From positions 1-42,138 of the forward strand of contig JAHFUS010000035.1 of assembly GCA_023264975.1 (NCBI GenBank): a stretch of DNA of 42,138 bases. The letters are read 5' to 3'. The notes under the pieces were generated by a model. The model made no database searches and was not told the DNA's origin. It worked only from the letters and a program-made list of their open reading frames with translations. Every line of letters starts with the position of its first letter. The first letter of the stretch is position 1. The translations under genes and the position numbers were made by a program. Source of the DNA: Actinomycetes bacterium (GTDB lineage: Bacteria > Actinomycetota > Acidimicrobiia > Acidimicrobiales > GCA-2861595). Shown one piece after another: positions 32,855 to 34,823 of the stretch.

Positions 32855-33229
32855 GCCCTCCCCCTCGCTCGAAACTGCCGATCCCAGTGTGCGACCGTTC
32901 GTGGCCCTTGTCGAGGGGCTACGCCAGACTGGACTCTCGATGACCGCAGGCGGCGCGCAACTCGGCGGGCGTGTACGTCGGCTGGTATACGTCGATCTCC
33001 GCTCCAGCCGGGAAGCGGGCGCACCCCACGGACGCCCGGCTGCCTACCTGCGTCGTCGCGCCGGGGTGGCGGAGCACACTTCCGGCCGAAGCTCGGGAGG
33101 CCGGGAGTGGTGGGGACTTTCGTGCCACCACCGGGGGTCTGAAACTGGCCATTGACACCGGACTCATTCGATCGACTCGCTGCCGACCAGTGGATAGCGA
33201 GGCTCGTCGTGAAATGAAGGGCCAATCGA

Positions 33230-33245
33230 CCTTAGTCGACTAAGG
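33230..33245. promoter_or_regulatory. 16-bp perfect palindrome upstream of the Tat-protein gene
   Basis: CCTTAGTCGACTAAGG, perfect dyad symmetry, about 54 bp upstream of the candidate -35 box. AT content is high for this region. It has the form of an operator for a dimeric regulator. Confidence 0.45.
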
Positions 33246-33298
33246 GCGGCAAGAGCGGCAAGACCGACAGTAAGAACGCTACATCCCCTGCAAATCTA

Positions 33299-33350
33299 TT
33301 GCACCAAGGGTCCCTTGCACCCTATTCTTGCCATGACAACGCGAGTCATG
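33299..33350 (+). promoter_or_regulatory. Candidate promoter with nested inverted repeats
   Basis: TTGCAC (33299-33304), an 18-bp spacer and TATTCT (33323-33328). The spacer contains AAGGG-T-CCCTT (33306-33316), an inverted repeat between the two boxes. Just after the expected start, CATGAC (33332-33337) and GTCATG (33345-33350) form another inverted repeat. Both would suit repressor binding or a leader hairpin. Confidence 0.4.
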
Positions 33351-33377
33351 GCTGTACCCAGAGCGACGGAGGGCGTG

Positions 33378-34295
33378 ATGCGGACGTTCCAGTTCGATCC
33401 AGCCAAGGTAGCTTTTCCATCTGGGCCGCCCCCTCCGGTGCGTCAGCATTCCCACCGGTTCTCGAGGCGTGCGCTGCTCGGTGGTGCGGCAGGTGTCGTC
33501 GGTGGAGTGACGGCGTCGAGTCTGTGGGCAACCAGAGCCGAAGCATCACGACGCTCCAATTCCGCACCCAAGCCGACGACCAACGTCATCAACATTAATG
33601 GTTTGGACTTTGCCGTGACATTCTTCGGGCCCGGCATGGATCCGTCAACCATCACCGACTTCAACGGCTTCGTCGGCGTGGCGCAGGTGCAAGGTGCGGG
33701 AGTGGCCACTTATCCTGACGACAGCGTTGAGCAGTTGCTGTACGACACCGACATGCGGTTCATGAGCGGCGTTTATGTAGGCCAAGACGGTGCTGTCTAC
33801 AAAGGAACGTTCGGTTTCGTCTGACTCGATCTCTATCGAGGTCAGTTCGACTTCACGAACTTCTCGACCCAGGTTCACGACTTCGATCCTGGGATCACCC
33901 CTTATCCCTCAGGGCTGTTTTGGACTGTCCCACTCAAGGCCCCGGACAAGGTGACGATCAACATGGGGGCTGGCGAGGCACGGATGATCATGACTGATCT
34001 GCAGCTTCTCGACTACTTCGACATCCCGAACGCCTTGTTCCAGTTTGAGACCCCCCTGTCAGTTGGGGCGTCGTGCAGCTTCGACGTCCGCTGGAGCGGC
34101 CCTGTGACCGACCGCTCGCCGGTGACCGCTCCCACCGGTTCCTCCGGCGAGCTCGTGCTGAGCCAGGCGACGATGAACTGGTCGGCTAGGAACGCGCAGG
34201 GCTTCAACTTCGTGTCGGACCCGAATGGGACTACGAGCGTCTTTGCCCAGCTCGGCCACGTCAGCAACGGCGTGTTCTTCAGCGATCACCGGTAG
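33378..34295 (+). pseudogene. Tat-exported protein gene interrupted by an in-frame UGA
   Basis: Start ATG at 33378 with GGAGGG upstream. The N-terminus is a twin-arginine signal peptide: FSRRALLGGAAGVVGGVTAS (28-47) and a cleavage site after AEA (residue 56). Translation stops at UGA 33822-33824 after 148 residues, but the same frame continues without another stop to 34295, about 157 further codons with protein-like content (LDLYRGQFDFTNFSTQVHDF ... SQATMNWSARNAQGFNFVSD). The two parts read as one extracellular beta-rich domain of about 250 residues. The family is not recognised. GC content and codon choice are visibly more relaxed than in the flanking genes, suggesting transfer. The UGA lies within a 10-bp hairpin (33821-33845). 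It may be a fresh nonsense mutation, a readthrough site or a base-call error. Confidence 0.75.
33821..33845 (+). other. Hairpin spanning the in-frame UGA
   Basis: CTGACTCGAT (33821-33830), loop CTCT, then ATCGAG-G-TCAG (33835-33845): ten base pairs with a single bulged G. The UGA (33822-33824) is in the base of the 5' arm. The loop has no G and is only 6 nt from the UGA, so it does not fit the known bacterial selenocysteine element. Confidence 0.6.
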
Positions 34296-34389
34296 TTCCT
34301 CCGACCGCTCGCCGATCCGCCGAGACGCGGCAGGGTCGCCACAGGGACGTGGGCACTTCGCCCGGTAGGTGATGGCCGTCGCCGACAAC

Positions 34390-34415
34390 GCCTGACCGGT
34401 TCCATCGGCTCAGGC
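34390..34415. terminator. Candidate bidirectional terminator between the Tat-protein gene and rsfS
   Basis: GCCTGACCG (34390-34398) pairs with CGG-c-TCAGGC (34406-34415), nine pairs with one bulge around a 7-nt loop. It lies between two converging genes. No U-tract. Confidence 0.45.
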
Positions 34416-34439
34416 GGCTCGTCGCGCGATCGGGCCGGG

Positions 34440-34823
34440 TTACCGGCTGGCGGGGCTCGGCTCCTCGTCCCACTCCACCCGGGGCGCGTCGGACCAGAGG
34501 CGCTCCAGGTCGTAGTAGCGCCGCACCTCGTCGAGGAACACGTGCACCACGAAGTCGCCGTAGTCGAGCAGCACCCAGCGGGCGTCGTCGAGACCCTCTG
34601 TGCGCAGCGGTTTGGGGCCGCACTCGGCCGCCACCCGGGCTTCGACCTCCTCGGCGATGGTACGCACCAGGCGGGGGTTGGAGCCGCTCGTGATCACGAA
34701 CGAGTCGGTGATGGCCAGGATCAGGCCCACCTCGAGGATCAAGGTGTCCTCGCCCTTCTTTGCCGCCGCCGCCCGGGCCGCCACCACCGTCTGCCGGCGA
34801 ATGTCCTCTGAGGTGCTCTTCAC
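34440..34823 (-). CDS. rsfS: Ribosomal silencing factor RsfS
   Basis: 127 aa from a GTG at 34823 that overlaps the stop of the upstream LytR_C gene. Family marks: KGEDTLILEVGLILAITDSF, VITSGSNPRLVRTIAEEVE and WVLLDYGDFVVHVF, then YYDLERLW. RsfS binds ribosomal protein uL14 and blocks joining of the subunits when nutrients are scarce. Its pairing with nadD is widely conserved. Confidence 0.95.
   Translation of the reverse strand: MKSTSEDIRRQTVVAARAAAAKKGEDTLILEVGLILAITDSFVITSGSNPRLVRTIAEEVEARVAAECGPKPLRTEGLDDARWVLLDYGDFVVHVFLDEVRRYYDLERLWSDAPRVEWDEEPSPASR

Follow-up and report, generated by a model that had tools for sequence, protein, structure and literature searches.

Does a single UGA inside an otherwise open reading frame mark a damaged gene, or is it a codon that the cell reads? 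The question is raised by a plus-strand frame in the window (the whole stretch of 42,138 nucleotides analysed here, from an Actinomycetes bacterium). In our reading the gene product is very probably an exported selenoprotein of 305 residues that belongs to a new family, with the UGA read as selenocysteine (Sec); both Sec insertion and export are what we infer from sequence. The ribosome would insert selenocysteine, delivered by SelB and tRNA-Sec, at the UGA at 33822, because a short SECIS-like hairpin (33838-33854) lies directly downstream. The protein would then leave the cytoplasm via the Tat pathway, and its single Sec would sit within a small, probably all-beta domain.

The frame and its single UGA lie where the initial annotation had placed them; its counts of 147 codons before the UGA and about 157 after it become 148 and 156 (Table 1), and the TAG terminator occupies 34293-34295. 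The ribosome site that it described is present. Its promoter-like region did not hold up, as a sigma-70-like promoter scan of the plus strand from 33150 to 34500 found none. On one side, the neighbours identified by a family search of six window genes are leucyl-tRNA synthetase and a GYD-domain protein; the other side has RsfS, LytR_C and cytidylyltransferase-like proteins. As every one of these lies on the minus strand, the gene appears to stand outside any operon. Among the neighbourhoods of 15 members of the family (longest flanking ORF on each side, compared by eye) no shared partner gene was seen. A perfect inverted repeat, CTCGAT-CTCT-ATCGAG, stands directly 3' of the UGA (window:33825-33840) and was seen in the window only among 45 entries scanned.

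Table 1. Coordinates of the features of the locus, in window positions
Feature	Position	Strand	Remarks
Predicted selenoprotein gene	33378..34295	+	ATG, 148 codons, putative Sec-UGA, 156 codons, TAG; product 305 residues
Shine-Dalgarno-like GGAGGG	33368..33373	+	4 nt 5' of the ATG; sequence reading
N-terminal signal, twin-arginine SRRALLG (Tat type)	33378..33545	+	End approximate; hydrophobic stretch, by eye
In-frame UGA, predicted selenocysteine, residue 149	33822..33824	+	UGA common to homologues at the site
SECIS-like hairpin GAGGUC-AGUUC-GACUUC	33838..33854	+	Loop start 19 nt past the UGA; covariation
C-terminal half of the protein	33825..34292	+	D151, H167-D168, F181-W182-T183 and W239 invariant in 33 members

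Conservation of the UGA and of the frame beyond it

When six peptide patterns taken from the window protein were run against 84,980 species genomes, an approach that reaches close relatives only, four relatives came up in Chloroflexi MAGs (one each). They share 62-66% identity with the window protein over the whole alignment and have the same frame and the same UGA, with the frame break at a common place (...G[TA]FGFV-UGA-LDLYRG...), so the arrangement is not a chance one. The four MAGs are suggested to come from soil-depth samples. Profile searches covered overlapping samples of 395 genomes from the window's class, 396 from its phylum, 110 from the class of the genome that carries member L003 and 400 from the phylum of that genome, with about 5-22 candidates scored per genome. 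The members obtained come from the window's genome, the class families f63, f78 and f86, the phylum family f128, Chloroflexi and one viral-collection contig.

The UGA stands at the site in all 45 distinct sequences read across it (43 plus two fetched later), down to about 30% identity, a count that is partly by construction, as the extraction scripts looked for TGA. In an independent check, every listed profile match spanning model position about 149-155 carries TGA; the profile models wrote the UGA as C, and a Cys at the site would score well. The homologues continue in frame past the UGA, and one of them (L137) has frame breaks elsewhere. This bears out the bypassed stop that the initial annotation had considered and speaks against the very recent mutation that it offered as the other possibility. 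Multiple paralogues occur in single genomes (three in G784 and in G855; two each in G786, G838, G889 and G1035), and each copy that was read has its own UGA. Duplicates were dropped from these counts (L069-L072 equal L003, L005, L006 and L004, respectively; L094, whose protein is that of L083, and L099 contain 45 nt already present in another member), as was a second pattern match in L084, which is a false frame. Sequences that do not span the UGA (L021, L090, L101, L102, L103 and signal-only matches such as L020 and weak rows of the two phylum samples) were not counted.

The motif around the site is close to GTFxFx-U-[LVIFM]-D-[LVI]-[YFW] in the family. Alignment A7, whose 33 rows predate the later finds, has 14 invariant columns (P64, G97, G106, D125, G131, F145, U149, D151, H167, D168, F181, W182, T183 and W239), the UGA among them. 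Some of these columns vary in the wider family, since H167 is replaced in the later finds L121 and L137 and the F181 region is different in L134 and L137.

The half of the protein encoded after the UGA is under purifying selection. Over 12 chosen member pairs, in which some members are reused, dN/dS is 0.08-0.22 past the UGA, similar to the 0.03-0.29 of the 100 codons ahead of it. The window alone would permit a recent nonsense mutation or a sequencing error that made a fresh pseudogene, and degraded copies of the family do exist (L021, L101 and L137). We rejected this explanation, which we regard as exceedingly unlikely, because the homologues share the UGA (45 distinct sequences) and because downstream dN/dS is well below 1 in the 12 pairs.

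Two further explanations place the anomaly in decoding or in gene structure. A genetic code in which every UGA specifies an amino acid (code 4 or 25) has nothing in its favour beyond the frame being open under it, and 18 of the 43 member frames have TGA as their terminal stop. UGA is thus not a sense codon throughout these genomes, and global reassignment was rejected, its probability being practically nil. Alternatively, the locus might hold two genes, the first stopping at the UGA and the second restarting at the next codon by coupled reinitiation. In L003-L005 the codon after the UGA is TTG, a possible start, but it is CTC in the window and variable elsewhere. The second half also begins without any stretch resembling a signal and would therefore stay behind when the first is exported. 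We rejected reinitiation as very unlikely.

The hairpin downstream of the UGA and the selenocysteine machinery

The available text of PMC13188914 describes the bSECIS model by a loop of 3-9 nt with G in the first two positions, a 4-16 bp stem, a distance of 16-37 nt to the UGA and an energy of -7.5 kcal/mol or better. We found a hairpin of bSECIS geometry, 16-24 nt from the UGA and with a loop starting in GU or GG, in 42 of the 43 distinct members, the window included. It reaches -4 kcal/mol or better in 39 of the 43. At other in-frame codons of the members, used as a control, such a hairpin is present in 1711 of 7999 cases (21%), and in 552 of 7999 (6.9%) at -4 kcal/mol or better. A narrower test (spacing 18-20 nt, -4.2 or better) picked out 12 of 12 UGAs; among the controls, 60 of 2628 in-frame codons and 160 of 4992 other TGAs passed it. 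In almost every member the loop starts 18-23 nt from the UGA; the exceptions to the hairpin are L124, which is without one, and L108, L118 and L120, in which it is weaker than -4.

The stability of the element is less distinctive than its geometry by several measures. The energy of the apical hairpin alone is -5.5 in the window and ranges from -2.9 to -13.9 in the others, and the -7.5 rule is met by some members only. A free fold of 66 nt of the window (33815-33880) gives -18.6, but in a competing pairing rather than in the SECIS-like hairpin. Five free folds have z-scores of -0.2 to -1.45, a stability that is not unusual, and synonymous shuffles of single genes gave values of 0.009-0.123 (12 genes). 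No Rfam SECIS family was found in the hairpin region of the window, where there are chance matches only, and on three loci Rfam gave no match.

The stems vary in sequence with the pairing kept (GAGGUC/GACUUC, GAGCCA/UGGCUC, CUCCC/GGGAG, GGUGCC/GGCACC and GACCCC/GGGGUC). For 38 distinct hairpin segments the covariation score is 0.828 versus 0.207 when shuffled, a value that no shuffle out of 500 equals. Because each segment was centred on a hairpin that had itself been located by its pairing, the set is biased towards pairing, and relatedness is not controlled for by the shuffles. The set leaves out L079, because of its even loop length, and includes L124 despite its having no hairpin. Within it, 90.8% of cells are paired, compared with a shuffled mean of 58.5% and at most 53% in slid registers, and 74 cells are changed on both sides, compared with 21 when shuffled. 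There is no excess of pairs with two-sided change (five versus 4.9; 450 of 500 shuffles as high) or of further pair types (19 versus 16.7; 74 of 500 shuffles as high). The offset of the hairpin centre against the reading frame differs by one to four bases between members.

The window's genome (98.2% complete) encodes adjacent selA and selB as well as selD, and its tRNA-Sec scores 67.3 bits (gathering threshold 47), with the anticodon tca according to ARAGORN. Outside this genome only SelB was tallied, with nine bearing genomes first met in the 400-genome sample left out. In the pooled count, SelB is over the cut-off in 26 of 29 genomes that bear the family (the window's own included) and in 82 of 133 others (Fisher p 0.004, no double counting), a p value that is generous given the relatedness of the genomes. 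The window's order, taken as a control, gives 9 of 11 bearing genomes versus 27 of 44 others, which is not significant (p 0.30). In the class of G784 the difference is weak (18 of 21 versus 55 of 89, p 0.04), with G893 (a fragment) and G872 (a signal-only match) placed among the others and four genomes common to both tallies. The three bearing genomes with no SelB over the cut-off are G785, G787 and G847. Two of them have close counterparts with SelB: the G847 protein is identical to one in G855, and L004 (in G785) is a near-twin of L005 (in G786). In some genomes (G033:C61, G669:C275, G866:C122 and others), EF-Tu-like sequences match the SelB model across in-frame stops; these are probably alignments that overrun the gene end rather than cases of recoding.

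Programmed readthrough without selenium would draw on several of the same observations. Here a near-cognate tRNA would decode the UGA at some rate under stimulation by the hairpin, with a short and a long form of the protein as products. The UGA is conserved and is followed by C in 29 of 43 members, which is a leaky stop context; there is structure 3' of the stop; and SelB over the cut-off is missing in three of the 29 bearing genomes tested. Against this, the window's genome has the complete Sec machinery, no listed match across the site has a sense codon, and we know of no bacterial readthrough kept over such divergence. The hairpin also obeys the loop and spacing rules set out for bSECIS elements in the available text of PMC13188914. 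Readthrough retains a slim chance, and insertion of Sec at the UGA is the reading that we carry forward. Selenocysteine is not named in the initial annotation; it is the hairpin, together with the sel genes and tRNA-Sec, that points to it.

The predicted protein and its possible role

The initial annotation had described a full Tat signal. SRRALLG and a hydrophobic run are present; a match to Tat models is not, since the window's own protein has none at E up to 0.5. Across the family the signal is better defined. TIGR01409 matches 26 of 33 members and PF10518 matches 20 of 33 (E up to 0.5), the twin arginine is invariant in alignments A1 and A3, and it is found in 37 of 39 members with at least 130 open codons ahead of the UGA. 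The other two are L036, which is without RR, and L037, whose KRRTSF falls outside the scanned pattern; with these two deviating, Tat export would be usual and perhaps not universal.

Beyond the signal, comparison with Pfam, NCBIfam and PDB sequences bears out the assignment to an unknown family. Only Tat-signal models match the 33 members consistently in Pfam and NCBIfam. When PDB sequences were searched with A7, 18 of them fell within E 5, the best at E 0.034, and almost all align to the signal region. Two AlphaFold models are poor (mean pLDDT 38.3 and 46.6), and the second, used as the query of a fold search in the PDB, gave no match at E 0.001 or better; from these models the protein is probably a small, all-beta domain.

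None of the 43 members has a Cys within 10 residues of the UGA, and no other A7 column has Cys in 30% or more of its rows, so a UxxC-type redox motif is absent. Given the lack of a nearby Cys in the 43 members, we tentatively suggest, as a possibility somewhat short of even, that the protein is a redox enzyme acting outside the cytoplasm, its Sec assisted by the conserved Asp/His residues in place of a resolving Cys. The main alternative to an oxidoreductase role is that Sec serves as a metal ligand.

Novelty, descent and atypical copies of the family

A Cys homologue is a usual computational criterion for a selenoprotein, not a defining feature of one. No Cys homologue is listed in the 58 other genomes of the window's genus, family and order, in the four profile-searched samples, in plasmids or in phages; the queries carried Trp at the site in the genus/family/order search, the 84,980-genome scan, the first plasmid search and the phage search, and Cys elsewhere. 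Plasmids (searched with four members) and phages (searched with one) yielded no match. The best reading of these searches is a family of Chloroflexota and the window's phylum, mostly Tat-exported as predicted from the signals, for which no Cys homologue was found. We lean slightly towards a strictly Sec-only family, in which Cys could not replace Sec in nature and whose members would be extracytoplasmic, with Asp/His partners and no resolving Cys.

According to the available text of PMC12013277, the deep-Sep method discards every candidate for which there is neither a known Sec homologue nor any Cys homologue. Its authors state there that Cys-containing homologues now seem to exist for every known selenoprotein, and that selenoproteins lacking them may be filtered out by the method. 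Under this retention rule, and with no Cys homologue found here, Sec-only families may have been filtered out. If the Sec-only reading is true, methods that demand Cys homologues would miss this family and others of its type. A gene caller that stops at the UGA would likewise split the gene of this widespread and diverse family in two.

The family is new relative to what was searched; it is of a known kind, the selenoproteins, and unusual in having no Cys relatives so far. By names and motifs, rather than sequences, no similar family is among the 119 prokaryotic families and subfamilies in Table 1 of the 2026 review PMC13188914. No recognisable report of it was found in the literature searched, outside which most subscription journals fall. 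Like bacterial selenoproteins such as the formate dehydrogenase alpha subunit and peroxiredoxin (as described in the available text of PMC13188914), it combines an in-frame UGA with a SECIS-type hairpin inside the frame downstream and with selA, selB, selC and selD. In contrast to them, it has no NCBIfam or Pfam domain, no UxxC or CxxU, no Cys close to the UGA and no Cys homologue found, and is all-beta, by a weak prediction, rather than thioredoxin-like. It shares the N-terminal twin-arginine signal with Tat-exported proteins of unknown function that are recognised by TIGR01409 or PF10518 over the signal only, but its mature domain matches nothing. The hypothetical selenoproteins DG, DW and DF of deep-Sep are likewise predicted and without a known domain; in the available text of PMC12013277 they have Cys-containing homologues and come from Desulfosediminicola and Desulfosarcina, whereas the phylum of the window and Chloroflexi are where the present family is found. 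Its dozens of diverged members, its paralogues inside single genomes and its covarying hairpin make it directly testable why some proteins must keep selenium.

A tree of 33 members places the window gene inside a Chloroflexi clade (support 97/92 with L003, L073, L004 and L005, and 100/99 with L006), well apart from members that belong to the window's own class and phylum. The 58 other genomes of the window's genus, family and order contain no match. Among three plasmid-collection records, actinomycetes come closest to the window's RsfS region, and the genomes listed from the 400-genome sample have none in common with the 396-genome sample, so the phylum of the window is probably one other than Chloroflexota. 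The simplest reading of this pattern is a gene transfer from Chloroflexota to the window's lineage.

Degraded copies take several forms. L021:1380-1831 still has its C-terminal third and a start like that of the family but has lost the UGA region, L101 is truncated ahead of the UGA region, and L137 retains the UGA with frame breaks on both sides. Finally, scans of the viral-contig collection returned one relative, a UGA-bearing member (L134:139-954, IMGVR_UViG_3300047160_016774, the same as L135). Its N terminus has a LEALEDR motif, which we take to be typical of Planctomycetes. Its C terminus is lost beside an opposite-strand gene that looks terminase-like by eye, which would mean either that a prophage has inserted into the gene or that the contig is chimeric.
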